A stretch of 34,506 nt of DNA from positions 1 to 34,506 of the IMG/VR virus record IMGVR_UViG_3300018005_000033; one strand, 5' to 3'. This DNA comes from a virus. Shown here one piece after another: positions 140 to 26,668 of this stretch. The notes under the pieces were generated by a model, which worked only from the letters and a program-made list of their open reading frames with translations, was not told the DNA's origin and ran no database searches. Within the stretch, counting starts at the first letter, position 1; each line of letters opens with the position of its first letter. The position numbers were made by a program, and so were the translations under genes.

Positions 140-1657
140 TTAGTTCCGCCAGACGAGCTCGATCTCCCCATCGGCGGTGACCAGGATATGATCCAGGACC
201 TGGTGCAGGATGGCGTTGACCGTCTGCGGGTCAGCCTCCCGGACCCAGGCCGGCAGGCGCTCGAGGCGGTCAGCCAGGGCGCGGCGGCCGGCGGTACGCT
301 CGGCCTGGCGGGCGGCGGTGTCCTCGGCATGCAGGAGATCGGCGTTCGCCTGGGCCTGGCGGGCGGAGAGACCGGCCTTCAGGTCCTTGAATTCAGGCAG
401 CGGGATGGACCCGGAGAGGTAGGCTTCGAGCAGGCGCCCCTGACGGGTCTCCAGATCAGCGATCTGTTTCCGTAGAAACGGGAGCGGGTCGGAGGCGAGG
501 GAAGAGGCCGGGATGGCTTCCAGGTGTGCCAGGGCGGCGGTCAGGCGGGAAGAAACCTCCGGGAGCAGGTCGATCTCCTTGATGCGGAGATGCTGGGGGG
601 TTTGGGAAGGACAGAAATATCTACGGCAATCGTCGCCGGCTGGATGGCCGGTCCAATTGTTATATCCAACCCAGAGCAGATGCCGGCATTCCGCACAGAC
701 CAACAGCCCGGAAAGACGAGCGGTGCGATGGCCGGAAAAGGCACGGCCACGGCGGGCGAGCTCGTCGAGAATGCGGCGCTGGGCAGGTTCGTCCCAAAGG
801 GGGGAGTGCCTGCCGGGCCCGGATTGGACCGGGGCGCTGGAGCGCACCACACGGCCTTTGCGGGAGTGGCGGGAATCTTTCTGTCGGCGCAGTACCCCGA
901 AGGTCACAACGCCGGCGTAGTACGGATTGCGCAGGATGCGGCGAATGGTGTCGGGGTGCCAGGGGCGGCCGAGGCGGGTGGGATAACCGGCGGAGTCGAG
1001 GGCGGCGGCGATCTGGGAGAGGGAACGGCCGGTGAGTAGGAGGTCGCGCATGACCAGGACGGCGGGAGCCGTGGCCGGATCTGGTTCCGGGACGACCTGG
1101 CGGTCCGTCTCATGACCGGGCGGCTTGCGATAGCCGTAAGGAAGTCTCCCCAGCGGATGCAGCCCTTTGTTGATCACGCGCCCGGGCATGCCGATCCGGA
1201 AGCGTCTCTTTAACGCGTTGATCTCGGCCCGGGAGGTCATGGCCCCGGAGGTCTGCAGGAACCAGACGGTATCACTGGCGGCGTCGAACTGGTCAGGCGG
1301 CACAGGTTCGACGGCCTGGGCCAGGCTGTAGATCTGGACGTTGTAATCGGCGAGGGAGGCAGCCACCAGGGCGATCAGGTCGCGCAGGCGGGAGTAGTCG
1401 TAGAGCACCAGCACGTCGAAGGCGCCGTCACGGGCGGCGTCGAGCATAGCCGCCAGGGCGGGCATCTCCAACTCGGCATCGGACAGGTTGACGTAGCCAG
1501 TACGGGGCTGGCCGGGGATGACGAACGGGCCGGCGGATTCAGTCCAGGACTTGGCGAGGGCGGTGCGCCGGCAGTTCTCCTCCTGGACCGGGAGACTGTC
1601 CTTGCCTTCGGCGGCCTGGACCTTGGAGCTGACGGCGGTGAGGATGGCGAAGCGCAT
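140..1657 (-). CDS. int: Large serine recombinase (phage integrase)
   Basis: This 505-aa protein is predicted to integrate and excise the prophage by serine-mediated cleavage at att sites. The N-terminal resolvase domain (about 1-150) holds the likely nucleophile in AVSSKVQ (Ser10/Ser11) and a variant of the DRLSR region (YDYSRLRDL). A recombinase domain follows (RLPYGYRKP, then RPWHPDTIRRILRNPYYAG). A zinc ribbon comes next (LLVCAECRHL, then DDCRRYFCPS), then a C-terminal coiled-coil segment (about 390-460). Length and order are normal for large serine integrases. The ATG has an in-frame TAA directly upstream and no clear Shine-Dalgarno, and lies 8 nt after the preceding gene, so translational coupling is likely. 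The gene is the last of the repressor operon, and its 3' end abuts attL. Confidence 0.93.
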   Translation of the reverse strand: MRFAILTAVSSKVQAAEGKDSLPVQEENCRRTALAKSWTESAGPFVIPGQPRTGYVNLSDAELEMPALAAMLDAARDGAFDVLVLYDYSRLRDLIALVAASLADYNVQIYSLAQAVEPVPPDQFDAASDTVWFLQTSGAMTSRAEINALKRRFRIGMPGRVINKGLHPLGRLPYGYRKPPGHETDRQVVPEPDPATAPAVLVMRDLLLTGRSLSQIAAALDSAGYPTRLGRPWHPDTIRRILRNPYYAGVVTFGVLRRQKDSRHSRKGRVVRSSAPVQSGPGRHSPLWDEPAQRRILDELARRGRAFSGHRTARLSGLLVCAECRHLLWVGYNNWTGHPAGDDCRRYFCPSQTPQHLRIKEIDLLPEVSSRLTAALAHLEAIPASSLASDPLPFLRKQIADLETRQGRLLEAYLSGSIPLPEFKDLKAGLSARQAQANADLLHAEDTAARQAERTAGRRALADRLERLPAWVREADPQTVNAILHQVLDHILVTADGEIELVWRN

Positions 1658-6558: not shown

Positions 6559-8270
6559 ACGAAGCGCCGGGATTGATCGATATCGCACTGATCGTCTCGA
6601 ACCCGTTCCAGGTACGCCAGGCGGCCGCCGCGGTGGCGGAGCTGGCGGCCAACATCGAAAAGAATGGCCTGCTGCAGCCGCCGACGGTGCGCAAGCATAA
6701 CGACATTTACGAACTGGCTTTCGGTCACAGCCGGGTGGCGGCATTCAAGTTGCTGGCGACTTCGGACGATAGCGAAAAGCGCATGTTTTACCGGCAGATC
6801 CCCTGCTTCATCAAGGAGCTGGACGATCTGCAGATGTTCGAAATGGCGGTCTCGGAGAACATCAAGCGGCGGGATCTCAACCCGGTCGAGCGGGCGAAGG
6901 CCATGCGCACGTACATGGAAACCTTCAAAAAATCCAGCGCCGAGACCGGCGAGTTCTTCAACTGCGACGAGGCGACCGTGCGCGGAACCGTGCGGCTGCT
7001 CGGACTGCCAAAGTTGGCACAGGAGAAACTGGCCGGTGGAGAGATCACGGTGGGCGCAGCGCGGCAGTTGCTGGTGCTGGTGCGTGTGGCTCCGGATATG
7101 ATCGAAGATGCGGTAAAACAGATCATCGAGGGAAACCAGCCGGCCGACAAGATCGTCGAAGATATCATGGACAGCCTGGCATTCAAAAATAAAATCATCA
7201 AGATGTTCCCAGGGTGGCGAGGCGGCGAGGCATCTGCAGGCCCCGGATTATGGGACCTGATCATGCCGACAAAAACGATCGCCAAATATCTAACTCCTTT
7301 ATCGGTCTCTGGAGATGCCAATCTAAAACTTGCCCAAAAAGCAATCCCGGGCGTTGGTTTGATCGTTCATGACGGCGACCTAAAAGATTGGATCAATAAG
7401 CTCCACGGCGGGCTGGTTAGCGTCGATGCATTGATTGCCCAGGGTGCGGATCCTGAAACGGTCGACCGATTGGATCGGCTGATCAATCCGCCAGCCTGCA
7501 GCGCCTGTAGTGATCACGTTAAAGCGGCGGGCAGCCATTACTGCACCTGGAAGGTCTGCCATTCCCGCAAAAAGGACGCCTGGACGCAGGTCCAGCTTGC
7601 CAAGGAAGAAAAAAGCCTGCAGATCAAAGCGCTGAGTGTCGATGAAGCGCATGCCGGCTTTGTGGTGCTGGATTCGGGATGGGACGATAAGCAAAAAGCC
7701 CTGGTCGAGGCGAAGGATCCCAACCTGCGCCTGCACATCAAGCCTGCGCAGAACAGTCACGCCTTTACTAGGTCCGAAGTGATCGAACTGGTCACGGTTG
7801 CCCCGGAAATCGTCGAAGCGAAAAAGGAAGAAAAGAAAGCAGAGACCTCCCGCGGATCGAATGCCGACTGGCAAAAGAAATACGATCACGAACAGAAACT
7901 CCGGGAAGCCAGCAGGAGATTCGAGGAGACCGAAGTAGATCTGCTATTCGCCACGCTCTTGGACCCGATCGACAACCTTGGGTTTCTGATGGCAATGGCA
8001 AGAATCGACGAAGATGATTTCGAACATTTTCAGGATGACGGAAGCAAGATCTCATCCAGAAAAGAGAAACTGCGGGCTTGCAGAATTTCCATCCTTCATG
8101 ACATGCTGGAAAACGATATTTACGACGTCGAAGACGATGGCCCGGTGGCCACAGCAACTTATCTCCAGGGCGTCGCTGTAACATGGGGAGTAAAACTGCC
8201 GGCGGATTGGCTGGAAAAAGCCATGAGTTACGAGCCCAATCCCGTTCCTACGGAAACGAAAGATGAATAA
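6555..8270 (+). CDS. ParB/Spo0J-like protein with cysteine cluster
   Basis: 571 aa. The N-terminus has the ParB signature: NPFQVRQ (box I), ELAFGHSRVAAFKLL (box II, with GHSR in place of GERR) and VSENIKRRDLNPVERAKAMR (box III), then a helix-turn-helix region about 130-170 (CDEATVRGTVRLLGLP). A second part (about 310-335) has CSACSDHV and YCTWKVC, a likely zinc site. The C-terminal 170 residues are charged and helical. No ParA gene accompanies it, so it may regulate transcription, bind a replication region or protect DNA rather than partition a plasmid. It overlaps both neighbours and is the largest early gene. Confidence 0.82.
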   Translation: MNEAPGLIDIALIVSNPFQVRQAAAAVAELAANIEKNGLLQPPTVRKHNDIYELAFGHSRVAAFKLLATSDDSEKRMFYRQIPCFIKELDDLQMFEMAVSENIKRRDLNPVERAKAMRTYMETFKKSSAETGEFFNCDEATVRGTVRLLGLPKLAQEKLAGGEITVGAARQLLVLVRVAPDMIEDAVKQIIEGNQPADKIVEDIMDSLAFKNKIIKMFPGWRGGEASAGPGLWDLIMPTKTIAKYLTPLSVSGDANLKLAQKAIPGVGLIVHDGDLKDWINKLHGGLVSVDALIAQGADPETVDRLDRLINPPACSACSDHVKAAGSHYCTWKVCHSRKKDAWTQVQLAKEEKSLQIKALSVDEAHAGFVVLDSGWDDKQKALVEAKDPNLRLHIKPAQNSHAFTRSEVIELVTVAPEIVEAKKEEKKAETSRGSNADWQKKYDHEQKLREASRRFEETEVDLLFATLLDPIDNLGFLMAMARIDEDDFEHFQDDGSKISSRKEKLRACRISILHDMLENDIYDVEDDGPVATATYLQGVAVTWGVKLPADWLEKAMSYEPNPVPTETKDE

Positions 8271-8505
8271 TCTCGCGGCAGCCAGCCCCGTGGCGATGAT
8301 AGAAGGCGTCATCCTGGAGAACGGGCTGCACCGCTACAAGTTCCAGCAGGCCGGCAAGATCCCGGACGTCGAGAAGATCTGGGGCGAGTTCGGGCCGAAG
8401 GACGGGCAACCGTTCTGCCTGTATACCTGGATGGAGAAAGGGATCGGGTACGTTTACCTGGCATGGAAGGAGTGGAAGATCGATCCGCTGCCGGGAATGT
8501 CCTGA
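8263..8505 (+). CDS. Small unknown protein
   Basis: 80 aa, overlapping the ParB-like gene by 8 bp. It is beta-rich with many aromatic residues (PFCLYTWMEKGIGYVYLAWK). The stop codon lies inside the first stem of the double-hairpin element at 8499-8552. No family recognised. Confidence 0.5.
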   Translation: MNNLAAASPVAMIEGVILENGLHRYKFQQAGKIPDVEKIWGEFGPKDGQPFCLYTWMEKGIGYVYLAWKEWKIDPLPGMS

Positions 8506-8559
8506 CGACCTAAATCGTCAGGACTGCCGAGTGCGGCTTGATGCCGCCTCGGTTCGGAG
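8499..8559 (+). promoter_or_regulatory. Double-hairpin leader, copy A
   Basis: Hairpin 1 has a perfect 10-bp stem, GTCCTGACGA (8499-8508) with TCGTCAGGAC (8515-8524), loop CCTAAA. Hairpin 2 is CCGAG, a T bulge, GCGGC, loop TTGAT, GCCGC, CTCGG (8527-8552). The Shine-Dalgarno CGGAG starts 2 nt later (8555). The same architecture recurs at 23448, 24789 and 26167. There is no U-tract, so it is not an intrinsic terminator. Confidence 0.75.
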
Positions 8560-19265: not shown

Positions 19266-19287
19266 TCAACCATTCAAGGAGTTACCC

Positions 19288-23265: not shown

Positions 23266-23278
23266 AAAAGGAGCAATC

Positions 23279-23512
23279 ATGTTGAACTATATCGGAAATG
23301 GGGATCATAAGATCGGGATCCCGGCCAGGGATTTGAGCGCCGAAGAATTGCAGCAATACGGCGGCGAGGCCCTCCTGCTGGCCACGGGCCTGTATGCCAA
23401 ACCCGCAAAAGTCAGCAAGAAAGCCGCGGCGGTTACGAAAGAAGTCGCTTCGGCGCCTCACGGCGTCGAAGTGGCCGATGGCGGCTTGACGCCGCCTCGG
23501 CTCAAGGAGTAA
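23279..23512 (+). CDS. Small protein before the tail-tube genes
   Basis: 77 aa. LNYIGNGDHKIGIPARDLSA, then YGGEALLLATGLYAKP is a compact beta/alpha unit seen in short proteins ahead of tail genes. The tail is Lys/Ala-rich. Its last 20 or so codons coincide with the double-hairpin element (23448-23501), so the RNA structure and the C-terminus share DNA. Confidence 0.55.
   Translation: MLNYIGNGDHKIGIPARDLSAEELQQYGGEALLLATGLYAKPAKVSKKAAAVTKEVASAPHGVEVADGGLTPPRLKE
23448..23509 (+). promoter_or_regulatory. Double-hairpin leader, copy B
   Basis: Hairpin 1: CTTCGGCGCC (23448-23457) with GGCGTCGAAG (23462-23471), loop TCAC. Hairpin 2: GCCGA (23474-23478), T bulge, GGCGGC, loop TTGAC, GCCGCC, TCGGC (23497-23501). 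AAGGAG begins 2 nt further on. Hairpin 1 and most of hairpin 2 lie within the end of the preceding gene, immediately upstream of the first tail-tube gene. Confidence 0.75.
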
Positions 23513-23515
23513 GCC

Positions 23516-24775
23516 ATGCCAAACATCAATACCAACTCCGGCACGAAAGCCATGCGCAAGATCCAGCTCGGGGTGGAGACCACCCCGGGGACGCCCGTCG
23601 TCGCCACGGCCTTGTGGCGCGGGGTGGGGGTGGCGGAGGACAGCCGCCTGATCTCCTTCCCGAAGGAAGACATCGGGGTGGCGCCCGGCGTGGACCGCTC
23701 CTACCTGGCGTCGCTGGGAGGCAAGATCAACCTGGCGCCGATCGAGGAGACCTTCGAGCAGGGCCCGTACCTGTTCGAGATGGGCTGCAAGAAACTTGGG
23801 ACGGGCGTAGCGGATGGGGGCGGGACGGGCAAGATCTACACCTACCCGTTCTGGAGCACGCCGGCCAACAAACTGACCCAGTCCCTGCTCGGGATCCGCA
23901 CGGTGGAAGCCGGCGACGACATGGGCCTCGAGATCATGGAATTCGCCTACGCCGATTCGATCGTCTTGGACGCCAAGGGCGACGGCGGCTGGATGATGAG
24001 CGGGACCTTGATGGGGAGGCAACTCACGGCGGGCCTGGCCGTGACAGCCACCACGATCTCCTTCGACGCCAGCCACCACATCCTGGATTCGGGCAACGGG
24101 CTGGCCGGGTTCGCCACACCGATCATTATCAAAGTGATCGGCTCGAACCTGAATGACGGGATCTACACCGTGACCACCACGGCCGCCGGGCAACTGACCG
24201 TGACCGAAACGACCGTGACCGAGAGCGCTGGCAACACTATCACTATCATCAAATATTTCACCGGCGGACCGGCGGGATTAGCCGTGCCGACCGTGGAAGA
24301 TATCGCCTTCGGCGGCACCAAGTTGTTCGTCGATCCGGTGGGCGGGACGCTGGGTGCCACGCAGGTGACCAACAGCCTGCTGAGCTGCACGGTGACCATC
24401 AAGACCGGGATCGTTGGAAAAGACACCGGCGATGGGGTGTACTACTTCAGCCACCTGGAGTTCGTGCCGGAGGACATCACGGTCAAGATGAGCTTCCTAT
24501 ACAACGGCAATGCCCAGGGAGAGCGGGCGAATTTCCGGTCCCAGACGCCGCGCCTGATCCGGGTTCAGAGCCAGGGTTCCGCCCTGACGACCCCCGGCGC
24601 CTATTCCTACAAAACGCGCAACATTGACCTGGCCGGCAAGTGGGACAAGTTCGACCCGATCGGCGAGCAGAACGGCTCGGACATCATCTCGGGCTCGTTC
24701 CACGCCAAATACAACGCCACGGCAGCCAAATACTGCGTGGTGACCTACGTAAACCAGTTGGCCAGCCTACCGTAA
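23516..24775 (+). CDS. Major tail (tube) protein, copy 1
   Basis: 419 aa. GVETTPGTPVVATALWRG, then FPKEDIGVAPGVDRSYLASL and PIEETFEQGPYLFEMG, with a C-terminal FDPIGEQNGSDIISGSFHAK, mark a long siphophage tail-tube subunit. An inserted beta domain (about 180-240; LNDGIYTVTTTAAGQLTVTE) resembles small Ig-like or tail-surface modules. A second gene at 24881 encodes a closely similar protein. The double-hairpin leader lies directly upstream. It forms the tail tube wall. Confidence 0.78.
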   Translation: MPNINTNSGTKAMRKIQLGVETTPGTPVVATALWRGVGVAEDSRLISFPKEDIGVAPGVDRSYLASLGGKINLAPIEETFEQGPYLFEMGCKKLGTGVADGGGTGKIYTYPFWSTPANKLTQSLLGIRTVEAGDDMGLEIMEFAYADSIVLDAKGDGGWMMSGTLMGRQLTAGLAVTATTISFDASHHILDSGNGLAGFATPIIIKVIGSNLNDGIYTVTTTAAGQLTVTETTVTESAGNTITIIKYFTGGPAGLAVPTVEDIAFGGTKLFVDPVGGTLGATQVTNSLLSCTVTIKTGIVGKDTGDGVYYFSHLEFVPEDITVKMSFLYNGNAQGERANFRSQTPRLIRVQSQGSALTTPGAYSYKTRNIDLAGKWDKFDPIGEQNGSDIISGSFHAKYNATAAKYCVVTYVNQLASLP

Positions 24776-24788
24776 GGCTGGAGAAACG

Positions 24789-24872
24789 ACTTCGACGCCT
24801 CATTCCCCAGGGATGCTTCGCGATGGCGCCGAAGTGGCCAACGGTGACTTGTAGTCGCCTCGGCTCAAGGAG
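24789..24872 (+). promoter_or_regulatory. Double-hairpin leader, copy C
   Basis: Hairpin 1: ACTTCGACGCC (24789-24799) with GGCGCCGAAGT (24825-24835), one mismatch, and a 25-nt loop containing its own small hairpin. Hairpin 2: GCCAA (24837-24841), C bulge, GGTGACT, loop TGT, AGTCGCC, TCGGC (24860-24864), with one mismatch and one G-U pair. AAGGAG follows after 2 nt. Like copy D it is preceded by GGCTGGAGAAACG just after a stop codon. Confidence 0.75.
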
Positions 24873-24880
24873 AGTAAGCC

Positions 24881-26152
24881 ATGCCCAATATCCAGACCAA
24901 CTCAGGCACGAAAGCCCTGCGCAAGATCCAGTGGGGGGCGGAAGCCACCCCAGGGACGCCCGTCGCCGCCACGGCGCTATGGCGGGGTGTGGGTGTTTCC
25001 GAAGACCTGCGCCAGCTCGTCTTCCCGAAAGAAGACATCGGAGTGGCGCCGGGAGCAGACCGCTCCTACCTGGCGAGCCTGGGCGGAAAGATCACCCTGG
25101 CACCGATCGAGGAGACCTTCGAGCAAGGACCATACCTGTTTGAGATGGGCGCCAAGAAGATCGGGACGGGCGTGGCGGACGGAGCCGGATCGGGCAAGAT
25201 CTACAGCTACCCGTTCTGGACCACGCCGGCCAACAAGCTGACCCAAGCGACGCTGGGGATCCGCACGGTGGAAGCAGGCGACGACATGGGCATCGAGGTG
25301 ATGGAATTCGGGTTCACCGATTCCATCGTCCTGGACGGCAAGGGCGACGGCGGCTGGATGATGAGCGGGGCCCTGATGGGACGCCAGCTTACGGCGGCGG
25401 CGGTGATCAACGCCACCACGGTCTCCTTCGACAACGCCCACCATATCCTGGACTCGGCCAGCGGATTCAAGGTGGCCAACGGCTTCTCGGCAGCCATGAT
25501 CGTCAAGGTGCTGGGCTCCGCTTCGAATGATGGGATTTACACGGTGACGGCCCAGGCGGACGGCCAACTGACCGTGACCGAGGTAACTGTCACGGAAGGC
25601 GCCGCCAACACGATCACCGTCAGCCAATATTTCAGCGGCGGACCGACCGGTCTGACCGTGCCGACCGTGGAAGACATCGCCTTCGGCAACACCAAGCTGT
25701 ACATCGACCTGGTGAGCGGGACGATCGGCACCACGCAGGTGACCAACAGCCTGCTTTCCGCCACGGTGACGATCAAGACCGGCATCCTGGGGAAGGATAC
25801 CGGCGACGGGAACCTGTACTTCAACCACCTGGAATTCGTACCGGAGGACATCACGGTCAAGATGAGCTTCCTGTTCAACGGCAACAGCCAGGCGGAGCGG
25901 GCGGCATGGCGGGCCCAGACGCCGCGCCTGATCCGCTTGCGCTCGCTGGGCAGCCTGCTGACCACAGCGGGCACGACCTACACCAACAAAACGCGGGATA
26001 TCGACCTGGCCGGCAAGTGGGAGAAATTCGACCCGATCGGAGAGCAGAACGGCTCGGACATCATCTCAGCCACGTTCCACGCCAAATACAACTCCACAGC
26101 GGCCAAATACTGCGTGGTGACCTACGTGAATCAATTAACCAGCCTGCCTTGA
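24881..26152 (+). CDS. Major tail (tube) protein, copy 2
   Basis: 423 aa and colinear with the preceding gene: long identical blocks include FPKEDIGVAPG, APIEETFEQGPYLFEMG, GDGGWMMSG and KFDPIGEQNGSDIIS. Differences cluster in the inserted beta domain (about 180-245), where this copy is a few residues longer. Both copies are intact, with strong ribosome sites and their own double-hairpin leaders, so neither looks like a decaying duplicate. It may form a mixed tube or replace copy 1. Confidence 0.78.
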   Translation: MPNIQTNSGTKALRKIQWGAEATPGTPVAATALWRGVGVSEDLRQLVFPKEDIGVAPGADRSYLASLGGKITLAPIEETFEQGPYLFEMGAKKIGTGVADGAGSGKIYSYPFWTTPANKLTQATLGIRTVEAGDDMGIEVMEFGFTDSIVLDGKGDGGWMMSGALMGRQLTAAAVINATTVSFDNAHHILDSASGFKVANGFSAAMIVKVLGSASNDGIYTVTAQADGQLTVTEVTVTEGAANTITVSQYFSGGPTGLTVPTVEDIAFGNTKLYIDLVSGTIGTTQVTNSLLSATVTIKTGILGKDTGDGNLYFNHLEFVPEDITVKMSFLFNGNSQAERAAWRAQTPRLIRLRSLGSLLTTAGTTYTNKTRDIDLAGKWEKFDPIGEQNGSDIISATFHAKYNSTAAKYCVVTYVNQLTSLP

Positions 26153-26166
26153 GGCTGGAGAAACGG

Positions 26167-26228
26167 ACACTGGCGCTTCATAGCGCCAGTGTGGACAACG
26201 GTGACTTGAAGTCACCTTGTCTCAGGAG
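26167..26228 (+). promoter_or_regulatory. Double-hairpin leader, copy D
   Basis: Hairpin 1: perfect 11-bp ACACTGGCGCT (26167-26177) with AGCGCCAGTGT (26182-26192), loop TCAT. Hairpin 2: GACAA (26194-26198), C bulge, GGTGACT, loop TGA, AGTCACC, TTGTC (26217-26221), all 12 pairs intact. AGGAG follows after 2 nt. Compared with copy B the lower stem has changed on both sides, which keeps the pairing. Confidence 0.78.
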
Positions 26229-26233
26229 ATCCT

Positions 26234-26668
26234 ATGGAATTCAAGATCCCGAAGATCACCGCTCCGCTCGACCTGGGCGGATATTCAACTGCACTGGCCG
26301 GGCAATGCGTGCAGGTATGGATCAACCCACCGCTCGAGAAGCGGCGGACGTACTGGCAGACCAGCCGGCGTGTGCTCGAGCTGGATGCGCAGAAGAAGAG
26401 ATTAAATGCCGAGAAACAACCGCTGACTCCAGCCCAACTTAAAGCCGTAGCTTTTTTGGAACAAGAAGCTACGAAACTGCTCGGGCAGATCGACGCGTGG
26501 ATCTCCGAGATCTGGAGCCAGGGAGCGGAAGAGACGCACGTGCCGGCGGAGACCGTGCACCAATTCCGGGTGGAGAGCGCCGACACGGACCCACAGCTGT
26601 TTGGATGGATGGTGGGCAGCAGCCTGCGCCTGATGATGGAGCACCAGGGCACTGTAAAAAAAGGATAG
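26234..26668 (+). CDS. Tail assembly chaperone, short form (gpG-like)
   Basis: 144 aa. The N-terminus (EFKIPKITAPLDLGGYSTAL) and the small helical body fit tail assembly chaperones placed between tube and tape-measure genes; they hold the tape measure during tail assembly. The gene ends just after a run of seven A residues (26656-26662) at which ribosomes can slip -1 into the next frame. The double-hairpin leader precedes it. Confidence 0.75.
   Translation: MEFKIPKITAPLDLGGYSTALAGQCVQVWINPPLEKRRTYWQTSRRVLELDAQKKRLNAEKQPLTPAQLKAVAFLEQEATKLLGQIDAWISEIWSQGAEETHVPAETVHQFRVESADTDPQLFGWMVGSSLRLMMEHQGTVKKG
26656..26662 (+). other. -1 frameshift slippery site
   Basis: A AAA AAA in the zero frame (codons gtA AAA AAA, then GGA TAG) is a classical slippery heptamer. 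A -1 slip bypasses the TAG at 26666-26668 and continues for 70 codons to 26874. The position, two codons before the stop of the chaperone gene, matches the G-GT system of lambda-like siphophages. Confidence 0.8.

Follow-up and report, generated by a model that had tools for sequence, protein, structure and literature searches.

A dispersed double-hairpin repeat of phages and Chloroflexota chromosomes, probably a mobile DNA palindrome rather than an RNA leader

Is a double hairpin that stands just upstream of phage tail genes an RNA leader, or is it a piece of DNA that has settled between genes? The question is raised by a 34.5-kb virus record (the window, meaning the whole stretch of DNA that was analyzed), in which an initial annotation described four copies of a repeated leader and ascribed their covarying stems to selection on RNA structure. 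The four copies are members of a dispersed double-hairpin repeat of about 56–65 bases. Its family plan consists of two adjacent hairpins (HP I and HP II) in fixed order, with conserved NCAT-type and TNGAN-type loops and a bulge on the 5' side of the second hairpin. A blind repeat search placed all four window copies in one repeat family, D4. The copies, with bit scores from a covariance model, and their neighboring genes are as follows.

8498–8553, + strand: copy c4 (64.6 bits)
8499–8508/8515–8524, + strand: c4 HP I; HP II at 8526–8553, bulge T at 8532
23446–23501, + strand: copy c1 (79.8 bits)
23447–23457/23462–23472, + strand: c1 HP I, loop TCAC
23474–23478/23497–23501, + strand: c1 HP II lower stem, bulge T at 23479
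23480–23485/23491–23496, + strand: c1 HP II upper stem, loop TTGAC at 23486–23490
24788–24864, + strand: copy c2, degenerate (48.9 bits)
24837–24864, + strand: c2 HP II, bulge C at 24842
26166–26221, + strand: copy c3 (69.7 bits)
26167–26177/26182–26192, + strand: c3 HP I
26194–26198/26217–26221, + strand: c3 HP II lower stem, bulge C at 26199
26200–26205/26211–26216, + strand: c3 HP II upper stem, loop TTGAA at 26206–26210
23504–23509, + strand: Shine-Dalgarno (SD) AAGGAG of the gene at 23516, by direct reading
24867–24872, 26224–26228 and 8556–8559, + strand: SD equivalents at c2, c3 and c4, by direct reading
23516–24775, + strand: paralogue 1 of a probable tail tube protein, a name based on gene order alone
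24881–26152, + strand: probable tail tube protein, paralogue 2, a tandem duplicate 78% identical to paralogue 1
26234–26668, + strand: gene after c3, probable tail chaperone, from its position before a probable tape-measure gene

When read and folded, c1, c3 and c4 each form two adjacent near-perfect hairpins, and the extents (23448–23509, 26167–26228 and 8499–8559) and common plan first given for them stand. The fourth copy (24789–24872) is degenerate: in c2 a long insert disrupts HP I, the core pairs include two A-C mismatches and one G-T, and the fold is no better than that of dinucleotide shuffles (z = -0.9). The sequence of c2 has the appearance of a c1–c3 hybrid. The stems GCCGA/TCGGC, GACAA/TTGTC, GGCGGC/GCCGCC and GGTGACT/AGTCACC are present as quoted in the initial annotation, as is the TTGA-type loop, in the form of a pentaloop; the single 5' pyrimidine bulge is present too, but lies one position off in c4. 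Folding energies of c1, c3 and c4 have z scores of -4.2, -6.0 and -5.7 against dinucleotide shuffles, with 0/200 shuffles matching any of the three, and the same copies folded as single-stranded DNA are far above shuffles (z -6.3 to -9.0). The copies have no U-tract, as had been noticed, which rules out a terminator. Rfam gave no match for the element at the gathering score or at a relaxed threshold. The 3' end of the open reading frame at 23279–23512 is overlapped by c1, and the stop codon of that at 8263–8505 by HP I of c4.

The first tail tube paralogue had no PHROG match and is 66% identical to the product of L158:3659-4921, and the gene at 26234–26668 is 40% identical to L158:4997-5437, with no support in Pfam for its chaperone identity. 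The names “tail tube” and “chaperone” follow gene order, since the AlphaFold model of the tail protein (mean pLDDT 44) was too poor to assist. The nearest relatives of the window’s structural genes are in phage record G405 (the same phage as G403, G404, G408 and G413), at 66% identity for the tail protein, 58% for a small gene and 40% for the next gene. Within 23516–26152, the probable tail tube gene has been tandemly duplicated together with its leader. A probable large serine recombinase, read from its translation, is encoded at the left end of the window (140–1657) and suggests a temperate phage.

A terminase search gave the first relatives of the window. In most of them the element is missing from the corresponding genes, the exceptions being L009 and, as a weak match, L014. 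Degenerate patterns then identified a true relative with four copies (L089/G001) and, in a second pattern search, about a dozen further contigs with the element, while the pattern GGTGACTTGNAGTCACC returned no true copies. Further copies in related phages, as the initial annotation had anticipated, were found with a covariance model built from 17 copies (R1). Besides the window, the phages positive with R1 are G001, G405, G406, L131, G410, L148, L009, L014 (weak), G588 (the same strain as G584), G587, L197, L246/L248, L112, L129, L151 and L194. By our grouping the element occurs in 17 distinct phages, the window included (at least 16 others). The highest number per phage, 19 reported R1 matches, is in G588, a 41.6-kb record (L202, L203) in which several copies are translated in frame within genes. 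BLAST against cultured phages and plasmids gave just short, insignificant matches.

The same model detected the element in bacterial chromosomes. Copies were found in 8/41 genomes of one Chloroflexota family, namely genome G030, with five to six copies, and 7 more, and detected copies number 1–6 per chromosome in these filtered first-look searches. Searching 400 Chloroflexota genomes for an exact pattern gave no match; the chromosomal copies came to light only with the covariance model. The G030 copies are in mixed orientation and sit between core genes, such as those for an ABC-F ATPase and aminoacyl-tRNA synthetases (named from translations). The nearest chromosomal relative of the window tail protein is encoded by a Chloroflexi MAG (42% identity), and this is among the bases for assigning the phages to Chloroflexota hosts.

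Some copies are elaborated. Extra small hairpins are nested within HP I or between the lower and upper stems of HP II (L129:4300, L148:4111, L109:14057, L158:3314, L131:7895 and L203:14150), and seven copies occur in two short arrays, antisense to structural genes, at L151:3434-5015.

The observation that both arms change together was borne out among 66 aligned copies, in which 22/22 pairs had changed on both sides. Both-sided changes were seen in 294 cells, compared with 92.6 ± 9.3 in shuffles, paired cells amounted to 93.0% against 72.1%, and the covariation score was 0.512 against 0.168 and was lost when partners were slid. Double changes occurred nearly without one-sided intermediates. These copies had been aligned to the model itself; a MAFFT-only seed alignment gave the same picture.

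Where RNA folding is under selection, G·U pairs are expected to be tolerated and A·C pairs are not. Across 19 core pairs (1,205 cells) we counted 1151 Watson-Crick, 11 G·T, 19 A·C and 24 other combinations, and the sense-oriented phages alone gave 10 G·T against 11 A·C (p = 1.0). By comparison, tRNAs predicted at the same loci had 47 G·U to 603 Watson-Crick pairs (7% G·U; Fisher p = 1e-12), a comparison limited to the G·U share because ARAGORN marks valid pairs only. Since G·T is no commoner than A·C, the copies behave as strand-symmetric palindromes, and the step from covariation to selection on RNA structure is not supported. The mismatch test covers constraint on present copies; a structured progenitor may have been selected at the DNA or the RNA level. 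Covariation of textbook quality thus need not mean RNA function; here the missing G·U pairs, taken with the strand data, clearly tell DNA-level from RNA-level constraint.

All copies lie on one strand in each of the 12 phages with at least two copies; weak matches on the other strand fall on true copies and are due to the palindrome. The coding strand carries the element in most phages and the opposite strand does so in four (L112, L129, L151 and L194), whose gene strand was confirmed by Pfam capsid or terminase matches. Antisense calls were accepted only with such confirmation because a simple gene finder was unreliable on some GC-rich contigs, placing the genes of L248 on the wrong strand. 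At third codon positions, the GC skew of the coding strand is -0.12 to -0.40 in the four antisense phages and mostly about 0 or positive in sense phages (Mann-Whitney p = 0.002), among few, partly related phages, three of the four antisense ones sharing a capsid type. As the coding strand is G-poor at third positions in these four phages, the element is again on the G-rich strand there. Several sense phages, the window among them, show little GC skew. Insertion into the lagging-strand template is known for IS608-type elements (PMC6006769) and may, by analogy, extend to the element described here. If the strand rule holds, every copy would record the direction of replication.

Comparison with G405 revealed two junctions that are empty in the window and filled in its relative.

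23266–23278, + strand: empty junction, TAA then AAAAGGAG
19266–19287, + strand: second empty junction

At the first, the window reads GATAA-AAAAGGAG-ATG and G405 reads GATAA, the element, AAGGAG and ATG. The window junction is empty and an SD is present in both phages; thus the ribosome-binding site exists without the element. The element fills a stop-to-SD gap of 3–10 nt, and insertion into such a gap can explain the fixed distance to the ribosome site that had been taken as a sign of control. The SD lies 2–3 nt from HP II in the window copies. In the sense phages, 34/49 copies are at gene junctions and 15/49 inside predicted genes; an SD-like core stands within 8 nt of HP II, mostly at 2–3 nt, in 20/49, these being junction copies, the distance from the upstream stop codon varies among these SD-adjacent copies, and many others have no nearby SD. 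This anchoring to the SD is what now speaks most strongly for a role in translation, or alternatively for a mobile unit of which the SD is a part. Neither a target-site duplication nor a constant target motif was observed.

Insertion can also be followed inside genes. The prohead protease gene of G001 contains an extra in-frame element segment that is absent from the window and G405 proteins. Copies within genes are often read in a frame giving a peptide like ATHVAETADGGLTPPRL, and another common frame gives SLRLMSQGLAVAA.

G001 L109:16664-16730; L155:15484 and 16173; L131:3342: in-gene copies with such frames

The proposal that the repeat marks tail genes was correct insofar as the c1 and c3 positions are common to the window and G405 (L158:3588 and L158:4926), where the copies are still paired although both arms have diverged in sequence, but the element also occurs elsewhere, antisense, in genes and on chromosomes. 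The shared junctions can reflect either copies that were maintained or refreshed or sites that were re-used.

We consider that the element is a dispersed, non-autonomous, strand-oriented palindromic DNA repeat, folded DNA that inserts between genes, with a probability of roughly 0.6. The evidence counted for this is the covarying arms, the strand symmetry, the confinement to one strand per phage, the filled and empty sites and the chromosomal copies, together with the nested extra hairpins and tandem clusters. Folded single-stranded DNA would be inserted during replication, which would give the strand uniformity and the bias towards the G-rich strand, and the enzyme that moves the element would act in trans, a host Y1/HUH transposase being one candidate. 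Complementarity of the arms would be kept at the DNA level in that unfolded copies stop spreading, and template switching, by mending imperfect palindromes, may help keep the arms complementary. In phage late operons, most of the insertions that survive would lie in the space from a stop codon to the SD that follows, hence the look of a leader. Y1_Tnp genes are present in 41/41 genomes of the Chloroflexota family, and since they are universal in this sampled host family, supply in trans is possible. Y1_Tnp is absent from 16/16 phage records, and the element was not found near any of 33 Y1 loci. These two results count against the DNA element reading, as do the absence of target-site duplications and of a constant target motif, the SD anchoring, and the copies at the junctions common to the window and G405, whose arms still pair at protein identities of 40–66%, an outcome that plain neutral insertion would not predict. 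More specifically, and only tentatively, we propose a new family of two-hairpin single-stranded DNA elements that moves between Chloroflexota chromosomes and phages by insertion into the G-rich (probable lagging-template) strand at replication, uses a host HUH/Y1 enzyme in trans, and in late operons has been taken up to space the ribosome site from the stop codon before it. As a tractable, phage-borne, multicopy family, it offers a way to study the spread of such tiny palindromes, the machinery that moves them, and whether phages carry them from host to host.

The alternative that fares best is the original one, that the double hairpin is selected as an RNA leader and controls translation or processing of tail gene messages, perhaps through a bound phage protein. 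We regard it as unlikely, although the SD-like cores near HP II, the two junctions common to the window and G405 with their compensatory changes, and the great stability of the hairpins speak for it. A leader should always be sense, whereas four phages carry antisense copies; nor is an excess of G-U pairs seen, copies lie within coding sequence and in both orientations on chromosomes, many lack an SD, and an SD is present without the element. As two copies occupy the same tail-gene junctions in G405, a secondary leader role is possible, and an effect of SD-adjacent copies on translation or mRNA stability is likewise possible but secondary to the DNA element reading.

Somewhat more doubtful still is that the repeat is a repetitive extragenic palindrome (REP) proper, for whose movement the Chloroflexota host encodes a dedicated Y1 tyrosine transposase (TnpAREP). 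The likeness to REP/REPIN and RAYT systems is considerable: both are short, dispersed, bulged palindromes, mostly intergenic and strand-specific as single-stranded DNA (PMC3733652, PMC8266576, PMC6006769), and some REPs, like some copies here, lie in frame inside genes (PMC3733652, PMC6006769). The element is indeed a short imperfect palindrome and mainly extragenic, and the host family has Y1_Tnp genes throughout. It differs from REPs in its two different hairpins of fixed order, its abundance in phages and the lack of an adjacent Y1 gene, no REPtron arrangement appearing at the 33 Y1 loci or in the 16 phage records. There is no fixed GTAG or CGTC tag (GT[AG]G stands at the foot of HP II in only 11/76 copies), and the few copies detected per chromosome contrast with the high chromosomal copy number of REPs. 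In L235-L245, from the same Chloroflexota family as G030, most genomes encode a Y1_Tnp-domain protein in an open frame of about 550 aa, which the element does not flank.

It is improbable that these are neutral palindromes with no mobility of their own, kept perfect solely by template switching in replication. Such switching does yield multibase compensatory changes and perfect stems (PMC8794818), in keeping with double changes that are almost free of one-sided intermediates, but it leaves unexplained why loops, bulge and the order of the hairpins are conserved between unrelated phages and chromosomes, and why some sites are filled and others empty. Least probable is an RNA antiterminator or mRNA-protecting element repeated through the late operon in the manner of HK022 put RNA, whose two adjacent stem-loops of ~70 nt with an unpaired base in stem II (PMC9378689) resemble the element in outline only and would suit the sense orientation of most phages, since put is an early-operon RNA with sites downstream of early promoters whereas the element is scattered, occurs antisense and on chromosomes irrespective of coding strand, is without an Rfam match and, lacking G-U pairs, shows a constraint that points to the DNA level.

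Other palindromic repeats help to place the DNA element. Single palindromes of Rickettsia insert in frame into coding genes and also into intergenic DNA, in bacteria different from the hosts considered here. Mitochondrial double-hairpin elements likewise consist of two adjacent hairpins, are dispersed, intergenic and occasionally within genes, have been proposed to be mobile, and differ between copies by complementary substitutions (PMC2800124); they belong to mitochondria and not to phages and bacteria, and the likeness is one of behavior only. Cluster K mycobacteriophages carry the nearest phage analogue, the ESAS repeats. These SAS/ESAS sequences are inverted repeats of unknown function just upstream of translation starts, and they too are phage-borne, with many copies per genome and nearly all in one orientation (PMC3203893). 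The 13-bp GGGATAGGAGCCC core of that family was absent beside the start codon in the leaders that were read, and the element differs from SAS/ESAS in its two hairpins and varied arms and in having further copies on chromosomes, within genes and in antisense orientation. Copies without an SD are often followed directly by a second GC-rich repeat (CCCCTCCCC-type), as in L089, L155 (around 16239) and L009 (17309).
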